Source of the DNA: a virus
Virus record (IMG/VR): IMGVR_UViG_3300044530_001168
Location: 1-34,488 of that record
Length of the DNA: 34,488 nt
Strand: one strand, 5' to 3'
Every line of letters starts with the position of its first letter. Positions within the stretch are counted from its first letter, which is position 1. A program made the position numbers and the translations under genes. Positions 4,582-34,488 of the stretch are shown here, in pieces. Under the pieces are notes generated by a model. The model was not told the origin of the DNA. It saw only the letters and a list, made by a program, of their open reading frames with translations, and did no database searches.

Positions 4582-5136
4582 TTAGTTCGTGCGTTTATCT
4601 ATGATGATTGCTTGTTTTATTACGTCCTCACGCATAAATTGTTTTTCTTCGGTTGTGAGCGGGTATATTTCGCCGTATTTCTCAGTCATGCCTTCGAACT
4701 TATCCGAAGCGCCTTGATTGGTTGTTCCGTAATAAACGGCTTCGCCTACTTTTACTACCTGAAAGCTCCGTTCTAAATCCCCGCTATATTTTGTTTTCAC
4801 ATTGTCGATTTCACGCCCTTGTATTTGCCTGAATCCTGAATAACCCGTAGTGATAAACATGGATTTACGCTCGTTTCCATTCTTAAACTTACCTTTCTTT
4901 TCTTTGCCCTGTTGCTTAAATGCGGCCTTTCTGATAAAAGCTGACTTTGAAAAATACGCGGGATCCGTTGAATATTCGCCAATCTGTACACCGTCTGAAT
5001 TCAATCCTAAATCAAATACACGTTTCTTGTGCATAGCCATTAAATCAGCCATTGTTTCAATGGCCAATACATCAGGCATTTGTCTATCAAGATTTTCGGC
5101 CATGCCTTCGATTCTATTGATGAACTCCTCCCACAT
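4582..5136 (-). CDS. Virion morphogenesis / neck (tail completion) protein
   Basis: The protein has 184 residues. It begins MWEEFINRIEGMAENLDRQM, has a strongly basic middle (KQQGKEKKGKFKNGNERK), and ends with a region like phage virion-morphogenesis proteins: ERSFQVVKVGEAVYYGTTN, a Gly, then YGEIYPLTTEEKQFMRED. In that family the pattern 'particle built, close to G...IFxLTxEE' is typical, and the protein acts at the head-tail joint. The start overlaps the stop of the connector gene by one base. Family assignment is by eye. Confidence 0.5.
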   Translation of the reverse strand: MWEEFINRIEGMAENLDRQMPDVLAIETMADLMAMHKKRVFDLGLNSDGVQIGEYSTDPAYFSKSAFIRKAAFKQQGKEKKGKFKNGNERKSMFITTGYSGFRQIQGREIDNVKTKYSGDLERSFQVVKVGEAVYYGTTNQGASDKFEGMTEKYGEIYPLTTEEKQFMREDVIKQAIIIDKRTN

Positions 5137-6122
5137 TACACATTCGATTTAATTTGTAAGCCTGAGCAGTCCACACATTTACAGCCCCCATCCATACGGG
5201 TAAGATATTGCCGCATTCCCATTATGGCTTTATCCATGTAGTCACGATATGCCTCAAAACCTGCAACGGCCTGCGCCTTGATTTCTTCGGCTTTATAGAT
5301 GGTCAAATAGTTCATTCGGTTGTTCCTCAACAATTCATCATAAGCCATTGCCCCACATAATTCATAAGCGGCTTGACCAATCAGCCCATCCGTAGCCATG
5401 TCACAAACAATGCTATCCAAATCACATTTCAAAATCATATCAACCTCAATCCCGTAGGTTTCATTTGAATTTAATGTGTAGTTTCCACCGCTGTAACTTA
5501 TGCCTTGTGTGAGCAGGTAGTTTTTATCAGCATGACACCCGCAATTTGGTTTAGCGCTGTAAAGGCTAATATCAGACGGCAAAGTTACCTGAACTTCAAC
5601 GCCTTCTAAGACCTTGTTTAGATTCAATGTCGTTATGTTACCCGCTACTAATGAAACCGCTACGTTATAAGCCGTGCCGGTTCCTACATCGGTAATTCTC
5701 AATGTCGTATCTATTGTTTGATTCGAGTAGATACGAACACGGGTAACGCACATCTTAAACAACCTACACCAAACCTTCACCTTCGATACAACAACCCCGC
5801 GCCTGTTACCTGCGCTCCCTGTTGTTACGACCGTTGAAGGCGTGATAAATTCAGACGCTTTGTAAACATCAAACGGTATTGAATTAACCCTATACTCCGA
5901 ATTAATATAAGCCTTAATATCAGCGTTCAGTTTCATCATTGCCCGCCGTCTTACGTCCTGAAGGAACTTTAACCCGGTCTGTGTGCGTTCATCTGCTGCG
6001 TTGGCTGCGAATTGCATAGTAATGCCCGGGTAATCGTTGATGTGGTAACCGCTTAAAGGGGTTACGTCCGATACCCCTGTGCATGGGTCCTTAATCGCAA
6101 TGATGTTATCTAAACAAGCCAT
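5136..6122 (-). CDS. Putative head-tail connector / adaptor protein
   Basis: The protein has 328 residues. It starts MACLDNIIAIKDPCTGVSD, followed by a PLSGYHINDYPGITM motif near residue 22. I associate that opening with a conserved protein that follows the major capsid gene in Bacteroidota phages. The N-terminal quarter and C-terminal third are helical (AYELCGAMAYDELLRNNRM), with a beta-rich middle. It ends in a cysteine cluster (GGCKCVDCSG). A location after the capsid gene and before the neck and tail-terminator genes fits a connector that closes the portal. The function is inferred; the conservation impression is from memory. Confidence 0.5.
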   Translation of the reverse strand: MACLDNIIAIKDPCTGVSDVTPLSGYHINDYPGITMQFAANAADERTQTGLKFLQDVRRRAMMKLNADIKAYINSEYRVNSIPFDVYKASEFITPSTVVTTGSAGNRRGVVVSKVKVWCRLFKMCVTRVRIYSNQTIDTTLRITDVGTGTAYNVAVSLVAGNITTLNLNKVLEGVEVQVTLPSDISLYSAKPNCGCHADKNYLLTQGISYSGGNYTLNSNETYGIEVDMILKCDLDSIVCDMATDGLIGQAAYELCGAMAYDELLRNNRMNYLTIYKAEEIKAQAVAGFEAYRDYMDKAIMGMRQYLTRMDGGCKCVDCSGLQIKSNV

Positions 6123-6141
6123 TTATTTTTGATTTTAAATG

Positions 6142-6170
6142 AAACAGGGCAGGCATAACCCGCCCTGTTT
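6142..6170 (-). terminator. Stem-loop just after the capsid gene
   Basis: AAACAGGGC (6142-6150) and GCCCTGTTT (6162-6170) form a perfect 9-bp stem with an 11-base loop, where two further pairs are possible. It lies six bases beyond the capsid stop codon. On the minus strand the stem ends in TTT but no longer T run follows. It may be a partial terminator or a 3' stabiliser of capsid mRNA. Confidence 0.55.
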
Positions 6171-6175
6171 ACTAA

Positions 6176-7249
6176 TTAACAAGCTGGGTCAGCAAAAGGA
6201 CAAATATCGTATTTGATAATGCCGTTAAAATCTGCGAATTTGCATCCGGTCAGATTCAGGATTAACCACTTAAATTTCAGGTCAATCTTCCATGTGAACA
6301 ACTTACAACGTGGGTCATAAACCAAGTCGAAATCAAACAACATGCCTGTCGCAGGGTCTTGTAAGACCGTATGCATGTAGCTGTCGTTGTTCGTGTTAAT
6401 CAAGTCCATCGGGTCCATGTTCGACCAATCAATCTCACCGTTACGGCTTGCAAACATTCCTGAATTTTCAGACCATGTTAACAGGTTCACGATTTGCGGT
6501 TGAACTGCAAACACAACTTCGTTACCGCCTGATGTAGGCGCTGTATTGGTTGCGTTGATGTTGATGTCATAGAATGCCGGGATGTCCAACAAGTTCGCAT
6601 TGTTGAATCCTTGATCGCTTACACCACCACGATTTGAAGCGTTACGCAAATAGTTGATTTGACGGTTACCGATTAAAAGCGGCATTGTCGGGTATCCTGC
6701 ATCTGCGAAATCGTTTTCAATCATTGTGATTGTGTGAGGGTAAGGTTTACCCGTTGTAAAGTCCACCAACTTCAACAAGCGCGTAGCTGTTGTGCTGTTG
6801 ATTTCACCGGCGTTTGTGTTCAAACTTGTGATACCGATTAAATCAGCCTCAGCCTTTAATTTCTGCATCTGCTGATAAACGGCATGGAACATGTTTTGTT
6901 GAACCGTCAAACTACCTAAGTCACGGAAACGAGAAACACCCGTTTTAAACCAGATACTTGAACGACCTGTGAATGAATCAAATGATTCACATGTTGGAGC
7001 GCCCGTGTCAACAGGGACATCACTACATGCAATCGTGGATGAATCAACAACCGCGTTACAAACCTCAGACGGGTAAGTGATTGAATACTTTGAATCAAGG
7101 CCGTTTTGTTGAATCATTTGCGCCTGAACCTGAGCGCCGTTTTGAGCGGAGAAAGCCGCGTCGATTAGACCTGTTTGGGCCTGAAAACCTCTGTTTTGAT
7201 AGAGGTCAAAAATCCCTTTCTGTACGTTAGGGGTGCAATTATTAGACAT
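6176..7249 (-). CDS. Major capsid protein
   Basis: The protein has 357 residues. It lies directly after the scaffold gene and before the connector gene, the usual place of the major capsid protein. The sequence fits: a polar, Gln-rich N-terminal arm (VQKGIFDLYQNRGFQAQTG), helix-rich middle (QQNMFHAVYQQMQKLKAEAD), and a beta-rich C-terminal half with PLLIGNRQINYLRN and FDLVYDPRCKLFTWKIDLKF. Cysteines are frequent (at least eight). No protease gene is seen nearby, so the capsid probably matures with the separate scaffold. The HK97 fold is assumed from the phage type, not proved. Stem-loops flank the gene on both sides. Confidence 0.8.
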   Translation of the reverse strand: MSNNCTPNVQKGIFDLYQNRGFQAQTGLIDAAFSAQNGAQVQAQMIQQNGLDSKYSITYPSEVCNAVVDSSTIACSDVPVDTGAPTCESFDSFTGRSSIWFKTGVSRFRDLGSLTVQQNMFHAVYQQMQKLKAEADLIGITSLNTNAGEINSTTATRLLKLVDFTTGKPYPHTITMIENDFADAGYPTMPLLIGNRQINYLRNASNRGGVSDQGFNNANLLDIPAFYDININATNTAPTSGGNEVVFAVQPQIVNLLTWSENSGMFASRNGEIDWSNMDPMDLINTNNDSYMHTVLQDPATGMLFDFDLVYDPRCKLFTWKIDLKFKWLILNLTGCKFADFNGIIKYDICPFADPAC

Positions 7250-28041: not shown

Positions 28042-28764
28042 CTAACCCGGTAATTTGTCAAATACGGTCACGTCCTTATCGTGGATGGTTAAGATTTGTG
28101 GGGTGGTATTCATGACGGTATCAATATAGTTACGGCATTCGATTACCCTATTTTTAATCTGTTCGATTCGTTCAGGGTTGTATTCAATGTCAAATGATTT
28201 GATTCGTAACTCAATCGGAAGGTTACTAAAAGTGTGCCGTTTCAGTACTTCGTCGTAAAGGTCCAAATCGACCTCATCCATGCCCATGTCGTAGGCTTTC
28301 GATCTGGCTTCGCGTTCTACAATGAACTCAGGGGTATCAACAAGGCAATAAACTAACTTTGCGGATCGTTTGCCCGTTAAATCCATGTACACCTGTAATT
28401 GGTCATTATATTGCTCAGGCGCTGTAGTTTCGAAATACGGGAACGTGAAGCAATCCCACGAGGTTTTGACATCAATCACATCATTGGCCGTTATGATGTC
28501 GGGAGTACCTGTGAAGTAATCGTTTTCGAACCAATCCGCGTTCTTGATTAACATTTGCCCGATAAAGGCAGATGTTAATTCGATTGATTGGTTTTCCTGT
28601 AATATTCCTTTTTTGGTGTACTTTGATGAAAACTCTTTTGAGCGTCCATAGATTTGAGATAGTACCCAATCTTTGCAATAACTCTTCGCGGTTTCACCCA
28701 TGCCTGTTTTCGCTCGATTATTGGTCATAATCTGATTTGCTGCGCTGGCTCTTATTTTGAACAT
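28042..28764 (-). CDS. YqaJ/lambda-type exonuclease
   Basis: The protein has 240 residues of PD-(D/E)XK type. Glu57 (KKGILQENQSIE), Asp89 (TGTPDII), Asp98 and Lys100 (VIDVKTSWDCF), and Gln122/124 (YNDQLQVYM) are the expected catalytic and structural residues of phage exonucleases for end resection. These enzymes degrade one strand of double-stranded ends so that an annealing protein can act. The upstream 159-residue gene overlaps the start by 13 bases and may be the partner. A strong terminator follows. Confidence 0.78.
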   Translation of the reverse strand: MFKIRASAANQIMTNNRAKTGMGETAKSYCKDWVLSQIYGRSKEFSSKYTKKGILQENQSIELTSAFIGQMLIKNADWFENDYFTGTPDIITANDVIDVKTSWDCFTFPYFETTAPEQYNDQLQVYMDLTGKRSAKLVYCLVDTPEFIVEREARSKAYDMGMDEVDLDLYDEVLKRHTFSNLPIELRIKSFDIEYNPERIEQIKNRVIECRNYIDTVMNTTPQILTIHDKDVTVFDKLPG

Positions 28765-29231
28765 AATAACTTTTCGTTTTCAGGGGTTAAGGAATACTTT
28801 GTTTTAATCTGTTCGATGGTGTACGACCCCGAATCAAACGCAGCCTTCGCAGCGGTCCATTGTTCGGTGTTCGGCAACAAGTCCGGTTTCTTTGGCGCCT
28901 GCGGTAATACACGAATAGCGTCATGTGTTTCGCCGAATGCGCGAATCTTTTTTACCGTTAGTGTAATCCGTTGACCTATCCATTCTTCGATAAACGATGT
29001 ACCTAATGCCTTCGATATGGCCTTCAGGTTTGTCGAATTAGCAACTAATGGTTTCACGCCATGTAATTGAACCACAGGGCATTCTTCTTGGCCTCCGTTT
29101 CCGTCGTGGACCATTTCTTTTTTTACGCCTGTGATTGTTGTTGTGAGGTCCTTAACGCGGCCTTCTTCATCCATCAGGTCCCATGAACCGATGTAGTTAG
29201 GGTTTTTGAGTTTTTTAAAATGAGTTTTCAT
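28752..29231 (-). CDS. Exonuclease-linked phage protein, possible recombination partner
   Basis: The protein has 159 residues: MKTHFKKLKNPNYIGSWDLM, then DLTTTITGVKKEMVHDGNGG, QEECPVVQLHGVKPLVANST, NLKAISKALGTSFIEEWIGQ, with a basic, beta-rich region (RITLTVKKIRAFGETHDAIR). This layout recurs, from memory, in Bacteroidota phages beside exonuclease genes and looks like an OB-like nucleic-acid-binding domain. It overlaps the exonuclease by 13 bases and has its own promoter, so a single-strand annealing or loading role is a reasonable guess. I cannot name a family. Confidence 0.55.
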   Translation of the reverse strand: MKTHFKKLKNPNYIGSWDLMDEEGRVKDLTTTITGVKKEMVHDGNGGQEECPVVQLHGVKPLVANSTNLKAISKALGTSFIEEWIGQRITLTVKKIRAFGETHDAIRVLPQAPKKPDLLPNTEQWTAAKAAFDSGSYTIEQIKTKYSLTPENEKLLCSK

Positions 29232-30223: not shown

Positions 30224-30535
30224 TTATCTATCTTGCCAATCAGTCCGCTGTTGGTCATCGTCAAGGCTGTTGTCATTGGCCACGTGCCATTCGTAGTCCC
30301 AGTCGATGGAGTCGATTATATCTCTAAAGGCTTCATCATTGACTTCGGCAAGGATGTAGGATAAGTCACCGACAAATTTTCGATCGATATACAAATCAAT
30401 GGCGAAATGTTCGTGTGAAAGGTCGTATGCTTCGCGGGGGCTGCTTACGTTGCAGCTAATCACGATTTCCTGCAATTGGTTTTTACCGCCTTGTTTAAGT
30501 GGTCTGAATTTCTGGAATGATGTTTGAATTCTCAT
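30224..30535 (-). CDS. Acidic early protein, 103 aa
   Basis: The protein has 103 residues. MRIQTSFQKFRPLKQGGKNQ is basic. The second half is strongly acidic (YILAEVNDEAFRDIIDSIDW, then DYEWHVANDNSLDDDQQRTD). There is no membrane or signal part. An acidic surface of this kind may bind a basic partner or mimic DNA, but nothing proves such a role. Neighbouring 87-residue protein is also acidic. Confidence 0.55.
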   Translation of the reverse strand: MRIQTSFQKFRPLKQGGKNQLQEIVISCNVSSPREAYDLSHEHFAIDLYIDRKFVGDLSYILAEVNDEAFRDIIDSIDWDYEWHVANDNSLDDDQQRTDWQDR

Positions 30536-30558
30536 GTTATTGGGGGTTTAGAAATTAA

Positions 30559-30822
30559 TTAATTAGAAAAAGTTTGAGTTAGCCACTCCAGCACTTCGCC
30601 TTCGATTTGAGAATCGATTAAATCGTAAAGGGCGTCGTATCTGTCTTGCCCATCCAAGTCATTAGCCGCATCGTAGCCGGGCATGAAGTTGGTAGTTGCT
30701 ATGAATGATTCTGATTCGCCTTCGCACTCTAATTCGACCTTTATTTTTTTGTGGCCATAGCCGGATGGCAAAGAGTCTGCAAATCTTACTGATACTTTTT
30801 TGTCTTGAAATTGGAAGTTCAT
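30559..30822 (-). CDS. Acidic early protein, 87 aa
   Basis: The protein has 87 residues. A basic start (MNFQFQDKKVSVRFADSLPS) leads to acidic sequence (VELECEGESESFIATTNFMP, GYDAANDLDGQDRYDALYDL, IDSQIEGEVLEWLTQTF). The net charge is clearly negative. It is placed immediately after the first gene of the leftward early operon, where phages often keep host-takeover or anti-defence proteins. Function unknown. Confidence 0.55.
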   Translation of the reverse strand: MNFQFQDKKVSVRFADSLPSGYGHKKIKVELECEGESESFIATTNFMPGYDAANDLDGQDRYDALYDLIDSQIEGEVLEWLTQTFSN

Positions 30823-30846
30823 GTTATTGGGGTTTTTAAATGATTA

Positions 30847-31374
30847 TTAGATTGATTGTAATTGTGCGTAGGCTTTAGCTAACTTTTTTTCGCCATGTAA
30901 TTCAAACAAGACGGTAACGGTCTTGTCATCTTCACTAACCTTAACACCCTTGCCAAATCGTGCGTGCATAACGTCAGCAGATAAGCCATTGAATGCAGCT
31001 ACATTGGCAGCCTTAACTTCTTCAACTTGTTTTTTTGATTCTTTTTTTGCTTGACGTTTTGCAGATTTATGAGCGCGGTCGGCTTCACGCTCCATCTGTA
31101 ATTCATTGTAGAACTCGCTCACAACATTAACGAAGTCCGCGTTTTTTTCTAATTCAAAAGCGATAACCCATAATTGTTTAGCGCTGAACCTGTCAGCAGT
31201 TGAAGCTATCTTGTAAGCCAATGTATCTTGATTCAATGCGCTCATAACTTCCATACGCTTGCTGTCTGCTAATTGTTGATGATTTGCATCAATTACGTTA
31301 CCCATTGAAGAGATGGTAACAGTTGATGGGTTAAGCCCTTGAATGTAGTTGTAAATGTTTGATGTTGTGTTCAT
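30847..31374 (-). CDS. Early protein with PcrA/UvrD-like C-terminal Tudor domain
   Basis: The chosen ATG at 31374 gives 175 residues and lies 22 bases from the promoter -7 element; an apparent start at 31398 falls inside the promoter. The first 95 residues are helical with unknown role. Residues 95-125 are a Lys/Glu/Ala-rich helix. Residues 135-173 (VMHARFGKGVKVSEDDKTVT, then VLFELHGEKKLAKAYAQL) match the Tudor-like domain at the end of PcrA/UvrD helicases (VxHxxFGxGxV...VxFxxxGxKkLxxxYAxL). In PcrA that domain contacts RNA polymerase. As first leftward early gene it could act on host transcription or repair. Confidence 0.65.
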   Translation of the reverse strand: MNTTSNIYNYIQGLNPSTVTISSMGNVIDANHQQLADSKRMEVMSALNQDTLAYKIASTADRFSAKQLWVIAFELEKNADFVNVVSEFYNELQMEREADRAHKSAKRQAKKESKKQVEEVKAANVAAFNGLSADVMHARFGKGVKVSEDDKTVTVLFELHGEKKLAKAYAQLQSI

Positions 31375-31385
31375 TGCTTTATCGT

Positions 31386-31496
31386 TTTGTTGGTACAAAG
31401 ATATATCATATACACATACGCCCGATACCTATATTGTTACCGAATTGTTAATATTAGTTAATAGTGTGTATATTGAAAATATGGTGTATATTTGCA
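31386..31496. repeat. Divergent promoter repeat, copy R1
   Basis: This 111-bp segment is present again at 32082-32192 with about nine differences. On the minus strand it contains TATCTTTG (31396-31403) for the gene at 31374; on the plus strand TATATTTG (31487-31494) just before ATG 31501. GTGTATAT half-sites occur at 31466 and 31484, and inverted at 31408. Its -33 elements are weak, so expression may depend on an activator or be controlled by a repressor. Confidence 0.75.
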
Positions 31497-31500
31497 GGGA

Positions 31501-31596
31501 ATGAAATTGAATACCGTTCATAACATTGATTTCTTAGACAATACCTTACCCGATAAGTGCGTTTGCCACCTCTATTTTGTTTCAACTTTTCCATAA
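31501..31596 (+). pseudogene. Truncated DNA methyltransferase start (remnant)
   Basis: ATG at 31501, seven bases after the R1 -7 element, opens a 31-residue frame: MKLNTVHNIDFLDNTLPDKC, then VCHLYFVSTFP and TAA. The first 20 residues look like the N-terminus of phage adenine methyltransferases (NxDxLxxLPDKC, normally followed by a strand and DPPY). The rest, including DPPY and the SAM-binding FxGxG, is missing; sequence after about 31560 belongs to the end of the oppositely oriented 76-residue gene. This looks like a deletion or insertion that removed the methyltransferase and left its start. Confidence 0.55.
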
Positions 31597-31802
31597 GTTT
31601 CAATCCATACTTTTGCACCGCAAGAAAGAGGCTTATCTGGCGAATAAATAATTTTAGCTGCTATTAAGCCGTCTTGCCCATAAATAACGGCTTCATTAGC
31701 ATAGTTATTTGATTTGTAAGTTTTGCAAGTAATAACAGGTAAATTATCACCTTTGGCGTTTGCCTTAATATTATGCTGATTAACGTGAATTATTGTTTTC
31801 AT
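31572..31802 (-). CDS. Hypothetical protein within duplicated-promoter block, 76 aa
   Basis: The protein has 76 residues: MKTIIHVNQHNIKANAKGDN, LPVITCKTYKSNNYANEAVI, YGQDGLIAAKIIYSPDKPLS, CGAKVWIETYGKVETK. It looks like a small beta-rich domain. The start codon lies just after a terminator-like hairpin (31803-31825), so its translation or transcription may be controlled there. Its end overlaps the methyltransferase remnant on the other strand. Function unknown. Confidence 0.6.
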   Translation of the reverse strand: MKTIIHVNQHNIKANAKGDNLPVITCKTYKSNNYANEAVIYGQDGLIAAKIIYSPDKPLSCGAKVWIETYGKVETK

Positions 31803-31825
31803 AAAAACGTGCGTTACAGACGCAC
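31803..31825 (-). terminator. Hairpin with T run immediately before start codon
   Basis: GTGCGT (31809-31814) and ACGCAC (31820-31825) form a perfect 6-bp stem, 5-base loop, followed on the minus strand by GTTTTT and then the ATG at 31802. It has the form of an intrinsic terminator but leaves no leader for the next gene, so it may work as an attenuator. Confidence 0.55.
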
Positions 31826-31835
31826 CCCTGATTTT

Positions 31836-32063
31836 TTATTTTTTTACCAATTCTATTTCTTTTAACCCGATTCCGTATTCAAAAATAAATCGTGATACTA
31901 TTTTAGAATCACGAGTTATTTCGGCCCATAAACTTTCAGTTGTTGGCCTATACTCGTATTGTTTTGCAAGTTTCATCTCAACGAAATCAGGACTAACATT
32001 TAAGTCTGTTAAGATGCTGTTGAATTGGTAACTACCTTCGTAAAAATTGATTGTTGTTGTCAT
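31836..32063 (-). CDS. Hypothetical early protein, 75 aa, from promoter copy R2
   Basis: ATG at 32063 gives 75 residues: MTTTINFYEGSYQFNSILTD, LNVSPDFVEMKLAKQYEYRP, TTESLWAEITRDSKIVSRFI, FEYGIGLKEIELVKK. A longer frame starting at 32117 would begin inside the promoter repeat, so the internal ATG, 29 bases from the -7 element, is preferred. It occupies the same position to R2 as the Tudor-domain gene does to R1. Mixed alpha/beta; function unknown. Confidence 0.6.
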   Translation of the reverse strand: MTTTINFYEGSYQFNSILTDLNVSPDFVEMKLAKQYEYRPTTESLWAEITRDSKIVSRFIFEYGIGLKEIELVKK

Positions 32064-32081
32064 GATCTTTTCTTTTTGTTG

Positions 32082-32192
32082 TTTGTTGGTACAAAGATAT
32101 ATCATATACATATACACCCGCTACCTATATTGTTATCGAATTGTTAAATATATTTAATAGTGTGTATATTGAAAACATGGTGTATATTTGCA
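32082..32192. repeat. Divergent promoter repeat, copy R2
   Basis: Second copy of the 111-bp segment, exactly 696 bp from R1. Minus strand -7: TATCTTTG (32092-32099) for the gene at 32063. Plus strand -7: TATATTTG (32183-32190), 14 bases before ATG 32205. ATGGTGTATAT (32177-32187) overlaps the plus -7 element. The conserved parts are the promoter elements and GTGTATAT half-sites; differences cluster in the middle. Confidence 0.75.
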
Positions 32193-32204
32193 AAAAAGAA
32201 TAGT

Positions 32205-32408
32205 ATGCAAGAAACTGAAACACAACGCAAAAATATCGACATCCCTTATCCCGTATTGCAAGCGCTTGAGATAATCGGATTAAAAGAGAAGCCAAACGGG
32301 AACAAGTATCCGAAACACATCATCGAGGACCTGTGTATTGATTACACGATCCAATCCGGATATGTGAAGCGGGATAAGGCAGGTAATTTAGTAAGGACTA
32401 ATAAATAG
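32205..32408 (+). CDS. Small regulator candidate, ribbon-helix-helix-like
   Basis: ATG at 32205 gives 67 residues: MQETETQRKNIDIPYPVLQA, LEIIGLKEKPNGNKYPKHII, EDLCIDYTIQSGYVKRDKAG, NLVRTNK. The order of a short strand (NIDIP), a helix (VLQALEIIGLK), and a second helix (YPKHIIEDLCIDYTIQ) resembles ribbon-helix-helix regulators. It is the first gene of the rightward transcript from R2, so it may control the divergent promoters. A longer frame starting upstream would reach into the promoter. The fold is a guess from pattern. Confidence 0.5.
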   Translation: MQETETQRKNIDIPYPVLQALEIIGLKEKPNGNKYPKHIIEDLCIDYTIQSGYVKRDKAGNLVRTNK

Positions 32409-32414
32409 TATACC

Positions 32415-32759
32415 ATGCACTTCAACAACCTAAAACAATTCCTCGAAAGCGGACTGAGCCAAAAGCAATTCGCCATCAGTCAAGGCATAAGCGTAACCGG
32501 AATGGCCGATAGATTAACACGCGAAATGAAGCGTTTGTTAAATACAAACGTAATCGAAGCAAAACGGATCGTCGGCGAAGTATCCATTCACATTGATGAC
32601 GTAAAACGGAATCGGGCTAATTGGCTCAAAGCGATTGAAGCCTATGACCAGACAATGTGCGCACCTGTTGACATTAAAACCGATAACCGAAAGATAAGCG
32701 AGTTGACGGTTAGCGAGTTTGTAGGGGTGATGATGAAGGTGATGGGGAATGAACGATAA
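32415..32759 (+). CDS. Putative helix-turn-helix regulator
   Basis: The protein has 114 residues. Residues 7-40 (KQFLESGLSQKQFAISQGIS, then VTGMADRLTREMKRL) have the spacing of a helix-turn-helix: helix, SQKQFAISQGIS turn, recognition helix. The remainder is helical with KISELTVSEFVGVMMKVMG. It follows the previous small regulator by six bases. Its stop lies in CGATAACGG, the same TAAC context as the next genes. It could be a rightward regulator; a terminase-like DNA-binding protein is less likely. Confidence 0.55.
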   Translation: MHFNNLKQFLESGLSQKQFAISQGISVTGMADRLTREMKRLLNTNVIEAKRIVGEVSIHIDDVKRNRANWLKAIEAYDQTMCAPVDIKTDNRKISELTVSEFVGVMMKVMGNER

Positions 32760-32803
32760 CGGTAGGGCGGTTGGCGCAGTGCATAATTTAAAACTAAAAT
32801 AAT

Positions 32804-33097
32804 ATGACAAACGAAGAAATTAAAACACTTGCAGACGGCTATTATGCTGGTAATGCAGACTGGTTAAACAAGGAACAAGAACAAGATACTAAAGTAGGTT
32901 GGAGGCAAGGGTTTGCTTACGCATTGCGCCAATTTGCTGTTAGCGGTAGTTTTTTTAATGAAGTAGCAATTATGGAAGCGGCAGTTACATGGTGCGAATT
33001 TGTTGGTTATGATAGCAAAGATGAAAAGGTATTTAATGCTTTTGTCATGGGTGCGAAATTAGCAATCAGTAATGATGGTTGGCAAAATTGCCACTAA
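32804..33097 (+). CDS. Cassette-like gene 1, hypothetical, 97 aa
   Basis: The protein has 97 residues: MTNEEIKTLADGYYAGNADW, then WRQGFAYALRQFAVSGSFFN, and EVAIMEAAVTWCEFVGYDSK. Mainly helical; no motif recognised. The stop is within CACTAACGT, where an attC-like element (33091-33183) starts. A 44-base leader without promoter signature precedes it. Short single genes followed by such elements are typical of integron cassettes. Confidence 0.6.
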   Translation: MTNEEIKTLADGYYAGNADWLNKEQEQDTKVGWRQGFAYALRQFAVSGSFFNEVAIMEAAVTWCEFVGYDSKDEKVFNAFVMGAKLAISNDGWQNCH

Positions 33098-33183
33098 CGT
33101 GATGCAGATAAGCGAAGGCACAAATAGCGGTGGCATTCTGCGGTTGGATTTGGGCTTTTGCTTATGTGTTGTTATAACCAATG
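33091..33183 (+). repeat. attC-like element 1
   Basis: Begins CCACTAACG and ends GTTATAACC, with the TAAC/GTTA outer pair. Inside, ATAAGCGAAGGC (33109-33120) is opposed by GGCTTTTGCTTAT (33153-33165), nearly complementary. About 93 bp long. The shape is that of an integron attC site, but the outer box differs from the RYYYAAC consensus at its first positions, so it is called attC-like only. Confidence 0.45.
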
Positions 33184-33258
33184 CTTTTGATATGTAAAGA
33201 AAAGTGCCAAAACCTATACACGTTGTAAAAACATATAAAGAAAACATCAAATATAAAT

Positions 33259-33351
33259 ATGGAACACGAAACATCAATAAACCACGAAACCCAGCCATCT
33301 TGTTTAGGTGCTGTTATAAGCCGTTTTTCTTCACAAATCAAAATAAAATGA
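33259..33351 (+). CDS. Possible 30-residue ORF in cassette region
   Basis: ATG at 33259 gives MEHETSINHETQPSCLGAVI and SRFSSQIKIK; the stop overlaps the next ATG (ATGA at 33348). Coupling to the 57-residue gene argues for translation, but part of the frame runs through GTTATAAGC (33313-33321), which looks like the end of an attC-like element. It may be a chance frame. Confidence 0.25.
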   Translation: MEHETSINHETQPSCLGAVISRFSSQIKIK

Positions 33352-33521
33352 GAAGATTAACAGGAAAATATAGGATTCGCAAAACCTTATTTGGGTGGCA
33401 AATAAAAGTAGAAGTTTATAAAACAGTTTGTGACTTTGTTGGTGATGAAAGTCCAGATATAAAGGTTTGGCGAAAAGCAAGTGTAGAAGATTTGATTGAG
33501 TTAGGTATAAATTGTGCCTAA
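33348..33521 (+). CDS. Cassette-like gene 2, hypothetical, 57 aa
   Basis: ATG at 33348 gives 57 residues: MRRLTGKYRIRKTLFGWQIK, VEVYKTVCDFVGDESPDIKV, WRKASVEDLIELGINCA. A short basic beta-rich protein. A longer frame begins upstream in sequence without coding character, so this start is preferred. The stop TAA is part of GCCTAACGG, the first box of attC-like element 2. Function unknown. Confidence 0.55.
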   Translation: MRRLTGKYRIRKTLFGWQIKVEVYKTVCDFVGDESPDIKVWRKASVEDLIELGINCA

Positions 33522-33645
33522 CGGCAAAATATTGGCGAAGGGCGGGAAAAATAGCACTACTGATGAGTTGTGTAGGAATGTTGCCAAAAGTGCAAATGCT
33601 CATTCTAATTACCGTCAGCCCGCCTTTTGCCAATATATTGTTAGC
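33516..33645 (+). repeat. attC-like element 2
   Basis: Starts GCCTAAC (33516-33522), which fits the attC R-box RYYYAAC, and ends GTTAGC (33640-33645). TAACGGCAAAATATTGGCGA (from 33519) continuing to GGGCGGG (33546) is nearly complementary to CCCGCCTTTTGCCAATATAT (from 33619) continuing to GTTA (33643), with a three-base bulge and few mismatches. The 70-base centre can fold further. Size (130 bp) and plan are those of long attC sites. Confidence 0.55.
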
Positions 33646-33710: not shown

Positions 33711-33926
33711 ATGAAAATAAGTACAATAGATAAAAACAACTGGTACACAATGGATATTGAAAAATGCGAATGGAGTAGCGACCATATTCCAGTAATTTCA
33801 TTTGAATTAAATAACCTTTCAGATGATACAAAATATCCTATACCAAACGAAACAGGATTTAATATGAGTATTGAAGATGCTAAACAACTTCACGCTTGGT
33901 TGGGTGTCGTTTTAAATGGCTGCTAA
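33711..33926 (+). CDS. Cassette-like gene 3, hypothetical, 71 aa
   Basis: The protein has 71 residues: MKISTIDKNNWYTMDIEKCE, WSSDHIPVISFELNNLSDDT, KYPIPNETGFNMSIEDAKQL, HAWLGVVLNGC. A compact beta/alpha protein; the end (SIEDAKQLHAWLGVVL) is an amphipathic helix. The stop lies in GCTAACCCC, again a TAAC box, but no complete second half of an attC-like element follows before the terminator-like repeat. Function unknown. Confidence 0.6.
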   Translation: MKISTIDKNNWYTMDIEKCEWSSDHIPVISFELNNLSDDTKYPIPNETGFNMSIEDAKQLHAWLGVVLNGC

Positions 33927-33971
33927 CCCCCAAATACACGCAATACCCTGCGTCTATTCATCGTCCGAAAT

Positions 33972-34010
33972 ACCCTACATTAACCCGCATTATGCCCTAC
34001 AATGTAGGGT
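33972..34010. terminator. Inverted repeat between converging genes
   Basis: ACCCTACATT (33972-33981) and AATGTAGGGT (34001-34010) are perfect 10-bp reverse complements with a 19-base loop; an alternative shorter fold uses CCCTACA/TGTAGGG. It lies between the plus-strand cassette gene and the minus-strand phosphoesterase gene and probably ends transcription from both sides, although no T run is evident. Confidence 0.5.
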
Positions 34011-34017
34011 TAATCAA

Positions 34018-34488
34018 TCAATACACGTTCCCGTCAATTACTTTTTTGTTATAGACCGTGAACATCCCTTTTTGGTAAAGTTCAATGATAGCAAATCCGT
34101 GATAGTGGTTATTGTAGGGCATATAGTCAGGCGTTAATTGACATAAGCAGCCCGTACTCCAACATCCGATTAATTTACCCGCATGGGTCTTTTCTGTATG
34201 TTCAGAAACCCTATGTACATGGCTCATTAATGCGCTTTGTTTGGTCCTTAGAAACAAACCTCTTGCAGGATTAACAGGGGCTATCATGCCGTATTTATGT
34301 TCGTGTCCGTGAATGATAGCTAACTTATTGGCCCAAATCGTTGCCATGTTACCGACTTCAACAATGTGCAATTTATCAAATTCAAGTAATGCGCTCAACT
34401 CAAGGCAGTCCAAACCTTTGATTTCATTACGCACTAAAAACTGATTCCATCGGTCATCATGGTTTCCTATCTTGTAAACAATGTGAGC
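34018..34488 (-). CDS. Calcineurin-like metallophosphoesterase (5' end outside window)
   Basis: The frame is open from the right window edge to the stop at 34018, giving 156 residues of the C-terminal part. Residues 8-11 are GNHD (in AHIVYKIGNHDDRW) and residues 61-64 are GHEH (in LAIIHGHEHKYGM), two metal-binding motifs of the calcineurin-like phosphoesterase family; SHVHR follows. The missing N-terminus should hold the first DxH and GDxxD motifs. Phage members may act on nucleotides, RNA or DNA ends. It is the only minus-strand gene right of the cassette array. Confidence 0.78.
   Translation of the reverse strand, partial: AHIVYKIGNHDDRWNQFLVRNEIKGLDCLELSALLEFDKLHIVEVGNMATIWANKLAIIHGHEHKYGMIAPVNPARGLFLRTKQSALMSHVHRVSEHTEKTHAGKLIGCWSTGCLCQLTPDYMPYNNHYHGFAIIELYQKGMFTVYNKKVIDGNVY

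Follow-up and report, generated by a model that had tools for sequence, protein, structure and literature searches.

In T4-type phages, promoter-early stem-loop (PeSL) cassettes (Arbiol et al. 2010; Comeau et al. 2014; via PMC4503421) place a conserved early promoter between exchangeable small genes and are proposed to shuffle genes among related phages; promoter-anchored module shuffling is already known from these elements. Mosaic temperate phages exchange modules at conserved stretches by relaxed homologous recombination, in which Rad52-like phage recombinases drive the formation of mosaics between diverged sequences (De Paepe et al. 2014, PMC3945230). The intergenic repeats of halovirus HF2, as presented in an excerpt of PMC8707807, are short repeated viral promoters, some of them bidirectional, that are conserved in relatives.

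The element described here, R, is present twice (R1 and R2) in the window, the entire 34,488-nt stretch of viral DNA that was analysed. Like a PeSL, it is a conserved promoter-like stretch between exchangeable small genes. Whereas a PeSL (PMC4503421) combines one promoter with a stem-loop or terminator and recurs many times in a genome, R is divergent and without a terminator-like hairpin (no terminator-like site was found within R1 or R2, and their single-strand folding was no better than that of shuffles, z −0.33 and 0.07), and it occurs once per contig in ten relatives and twice in the window. Neither the promoter–terminator pairing nor the many copies per genome that characterize PeSLs are thus found, and R belongs to an unrelated phage family. 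The likeness to relaxed homologous recombination lies in module exchange at conserved stretches and in Rad52-like recombinases, a Rad52/22-family protein being encoded by one relative, L014; that process was demonstrated with E. coli lambdoid phages (PMC3945230), whereas the case for R is drawn from sequence alone. HF2, by contrast, is an archaeal virus, whose repeats keep their positions among relatives and, within the excerpt cited (PMC8707807), are not described as recombination points. R would offer a concrete and well-resolved case, outside T4 and lambdoid phages, of a phage promoter that acts as a common seam between exchangeable modules.

As given in a preliminary description of this DNA, R1 and R2 pair without gaps over 111 nt at a spacing of 696 bp; they lie in the same orientation, with 102 of 111 identities and nine mismatches (92% identity; Table 1). 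A BLAST comparison of the two copies gives an E-value of 2.6e-42, and the runner-up ungapped match of R1 in the window reaches 51 of 111 identities, no other similar stretch being present, so the likeness of the two copies is not due to chance.

Table 1. Features at and around the two copies of R (window positions; -7 boxes are matches to TANNTTTGY).
Feature	Position	Strand	Remark
175-aa gene, leftward of R1	30847..31374	-	common to L003 only (93% identity)
R1, first of the two copies	31386..31496	.	A-type left half; centre same as that of L013
Leftward -7 box TATCTTTGT of R1	31395..31403	-	TANNTTTGY match; TATCTTTG core invariant in 12 copies
GTGTATAT direct-repeat pair of R1	31466..31491	+	starts 31466 and 31484, 18 bp apart; in 12/12 copies
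Rightward -7 box TATATTTGC of R1	31487..31495	+	TANNTTTGY match; invariant in 12 copies
Rightward ORF of R1, 31 aa, DNA methyltransferase stump	31501..31596	+	homology limited to the first 20 codons
Illegitimate junction	31564..31571	.	methyltransferase homology out, 76-aa stop-codon homology in
76-aa gene, PHROG 8676	31572..31802	-	family widespread in phages
75-aa gene, first leftward of R2	31836..32063	-	homologues in ten phage contigs, none with R
R2, second copy	32082..32192	.	A-type left half; centre same as that of L003/L012
Leftward -7 box TATCTTTGT of R2	32091..32099	-	TANNTTTGY match; invariant core
GTGTATAT direct-repeat pair of R2	32162..32187	+	same pair as in R1; in 12/12 copies
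Rightward -7 box TATATTTGC of R2	32183..32191	+	TANNTTTGY match; invariant
67-aa gene, first rightward of R2	32205..32408	+	conserved in all relatives
114-aa gene, second rightward of R2	32415..32759	+	N-terminal three-helix arrangement

At both ends of R, in all 12 copies, an outward TAnnTTTG is found, which is the −7 consensus of Bacteroidota sigma-A (PMC9723704). Judged by its letters, R resembles a promoter that fires both ways, its outward-facing −7 boxes being conserved, and the earlier view that its putative promoter cores are preserved agrees with the invariance of both boxes. A generic sigma-70 scan returned no more sites than it did in shuffles, as expected if the host has sigma-A of the Bacteroidota type. 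The window holds six copies of the octamer GTGTATAT, where 1.2 would be expected, and each of the six lies within R1 or R2; in the ten relatives, 28 copies fall inside R and one falls outside it (109 kb). Preservation of half-sites, also proposed, holds for the right-hand octamers (R positions 81 and 99), which are present in both copies and in 10/10 relatives and the second of which overlaps the rightward −7 box, but not for the left-hand (third) octamer, which is displaced by 6 bp between R1 (31408–31415) and R2 (32110–32117) and is shifted or lost across copies. The right-hand pair is likely to be a regulator site and, given that the pair is identical in R1 and R2, control of both by one common regulator is plausible. 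The model of the 114-aa protein predicts, with confidence, a three-helix N-terminus that is compatible with a helix–turn–helix, making the protein a possible regulator; a fold search of the PDB with it gave no match below E 0.001. A ribbon–helix–helix reading of the 67-aa protein was dropped, as the model was of low confidence (pLDDT 65).

Single-copy versions of R, sought among relatives, were found in all ten: two independent pattern scans and searches with the 67-aa protein located the R core in ten other IMG/VR contigs, with one match in each. A search with the 175-aa protein, which matches no Pfam family above the curated cut-off and no PHROG convincingly, returned one relative, L003, in which a single R lies between the 175-aa and 67-aa genes. 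The 175-aa genes of L003 and the window are about 93% identical; L003 is a separate lineage and not a direct deletion product. The comparisons of R are all drawn from IMG/VR because blastn of deposited phage genomes with positions 30400–33600 returned no match. In bacterial genomes, the first R-core pattern had no match and two scans gave no credible prophage; a shorter R pattern matched once, in a Lactobacillales bin, and this was judged to be chance.

The left neighbours of R vary in most relatives, encoding proteins of 103, 87+85, 114, 50, 58, 65, 56 and 87+175 aa. To its right lies either the pair of 67-aa and 114-aa genes directly or, before that pair, a module of about 2.4 kb with a helicase and an N6_N4 methyltransferase. 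Mean pairwise identity is 0.8–1.0 within R and drops to 0.3–0.45, near chance, 10–30 bp outside the −7 boxes. Since R is the sole well conserved stretch between exchangeable neighbours, it would serve as a homology anchor. The leader to the left of R2 is similar to that of L005.

Exchange can also be traced inside the element. The left half of R comes in two alleles, A and B, which differ at 17–19 of 46 nt; five relatives have exactly the same sequence for one of these alleles. Each left allele is seen with each right module (A–67aa, A–helicase, B–67aa and B–helicase), which implies that exchange takes place within the promoter. The tests were small (12 copies, 111 nt each) but concordant. The four-gamete test rejects 164 of the 300 site pairs and sets a minimum of six exchanges, and after linked patterns were collapsed 32 of 55 were incompatible, with local clustering (p 0.004–0.009). 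R is therefore a conserved stretch with differing modules on both sides and incompatible sites within, as expected of a generic recombination anchor; the suggestion of a recombination platform gains from these sites, from the variable flanks and from the four left/right combinations. The identity of R could also reflect strong purifying selection on the promoter, with modules swapped by other means.

The description of the promoter as duplicated is not borne out, as the two copies hold different population alleles. For eight of the nine differences between R1 and R2, each state is already present among single-copy relatives. Copies made by tandem duplication should be closest to each other, but the centres (R positions 47–75) match those of other genomes instead: R1 has the centre of L013 and R2 that of L012, with 0 differences in either case, against five between R1 and R2. 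On the basis of this polymorphism pattern and of the centres, R1 and R2 are two alleles that have come together and not the outcome of a fresh duplication.

Each copy had also been credited with a leftward and a rightward gene, but the rightward ‘gene’ of R1 is merely a 31-codon ORF, the first 20 codons of which are a methyltransferase stump. This ORF starts with MKLNTVHNIDFLDNTLPDKC, which matches the beginning of phage DNA methyltransferases (identity of up to 90% across 20 residues). The stump breaks off just ahead of the DPPY motif of the full-length phage enzymes and runs on into the end of a foreign gene. Methyltransferase homology stops near 31564 and homology to the 76-aa gene starts at its stop codon, 31571–31572. 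The intervening block, which was thought to be gained or lost by homologous exchange between the copies, is thus not flanked by two clean homologous exchanges; at one end it has an illegitimate junction that falls within a methyltransferase gene. The methyltransferase start codon (31501) lies 5–6 nt past the rightward −7 box of R1, so the predicted transcript would be leaderless or nearly so.

We consider it probable that R is a two-way module-swap anchor and that the two alleles in the window were joined illegitimately from two related phages. R would be the principal two-way promoter in a tailed-phage family, the hosts of which are probably Bacteroidota; the predicted leftward operon takes in genes of recombination and replication, and the predicted rightward one begins with the 67-aa and 114-aa genes. 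Exchange within R, probably aided by phage exonuclease and annealing proteins, would reassort left and right modules. The putative parents are a phage with the order 175aa–R1–methyltransferase and a phage with the order 76aa–75aa–R2–67aa, and a single illegitimate break in the 5′ end of the methyltransferase gene most likely joined them into the two-copy layout. If R1 and R2 recombined, 696 bp would be lost and 175aa–R–67aa would remain, the ordinary single-copy layout of L003. The two-copy state, known from one metagenomic contig, is an unusual product of module traffic, and a genome in this state looks like an intermediate of gene gain. A hunt for the donor yielded 45 relatives with a full-length methyltransferase body (L116–L160), and no R lay upstream in the 12 of these 45 that were viewed; a donor in which R adjoins an intact methyltransferase of this kind was not found.

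Enzymes that may act at R are encoded by these phages. The window encodes a PHROG 5715 exonuclease (28042–28764) and a PHROG 21613 protein (28752–29231, minus strand), and L014 encodes its Rad52/22-family protein (5688–6329, minus strand) next to a protein whose YqaJ match falls short of the curated cut-off (4924–5691, minus strand); L014 has this pair in the place of the window’s two genes, and the recombination genes themselves thus seem to be exchanged. No annealing protein of the window’s own was identified. Action of exonuclease and annealing enzymes at R would be in line with work on lambdoid phages (PMC3945230).

A more far-reaching reading makes R a dedicated, selected recombination hinge, the sequence of which is kept for regulation as well as for early-module reassortment, with two-copy genomes as regular insertion and deletion intermediates of gene gain and with the rightward operon leading downstream into an array of integron-like cassettes. 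We regard this as unlikely. If it were true, the seam sequence could predict the entry points of accessory genes in such phages and could retrieve new accessory genes, such as anti-defence candidates, from metagenomes.

An assembly chimera, in which contigs of two co-occurring strains were fused into a false two-copy layout, is improbable. That the copies are alleles of different strains would suit such a fusion, as would the origin of the window as a metagenomic contig without end repeats and the possibility of joins at R alleles common to other strains; against it, R1 and R2 have no exact match longer than 29 bp, which is too short for merging by an assembler, the usual assembly words being 31 or more. 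The junction between the stump and the 76-aa gene, moreover, offers no obvious common sequence by which a false join could arise, and some molecule must carry it. We give equally little credence to selection for two promoters, by which R2 was kept as the regulated promoter of inserted 75-aa and 76-aa genes in the manner of a moron. The insert does hold two genes of families known in other phages, with an R-type promoter directly upstream, but R was absent from all checked loci that carry these genes in other phages, so the promoter does not travel with them as a unit, and no second example was seen. Recent tandem duplication of one promoter in the phage, with later divergence and gene insertion between the copies, is very improbable and largely refuted by the allele pattern: the shared orientation, gapless alignment and 92% identity fit it, but convergent mutation to known alleles at so many sites is unlikely, each centre is that of a different relative and the left-side leaders of R1 and R2 differ.

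Two more conserved stretches lie between variable genes in most relatives, at window positions 33163–33246 and 33924–34025 (84 and 102 bp; about 93–99% identical), and are possibly additional exchange points. The first of them leads into ORFs with a common MEHET- start and differing bodies.

Clusters of attC sites without an integrase have been reported in virulent phages (PMC9892861). Here, a relaxed pattern returned 19 attC-like sites on the coding strand in 27.7 kb from 12 contigs, with two on the other strand and one in a 62-kb control; the strict attC pattern had no match. Such sites are found in the window at 33093–33176 and 33517–33645, and in L005–L013 downstream of the 114-aa gene. 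They follow the direction of transcription rightward from R, mostly after small ORFs, and form a cassette-like array without a recognized integrase, the content and order of which vary between relatives. The L003 contig stops, at its position 1, exactly where an attC-like site has its 3′ boundary; it looks as though the assembly had broken in the array.
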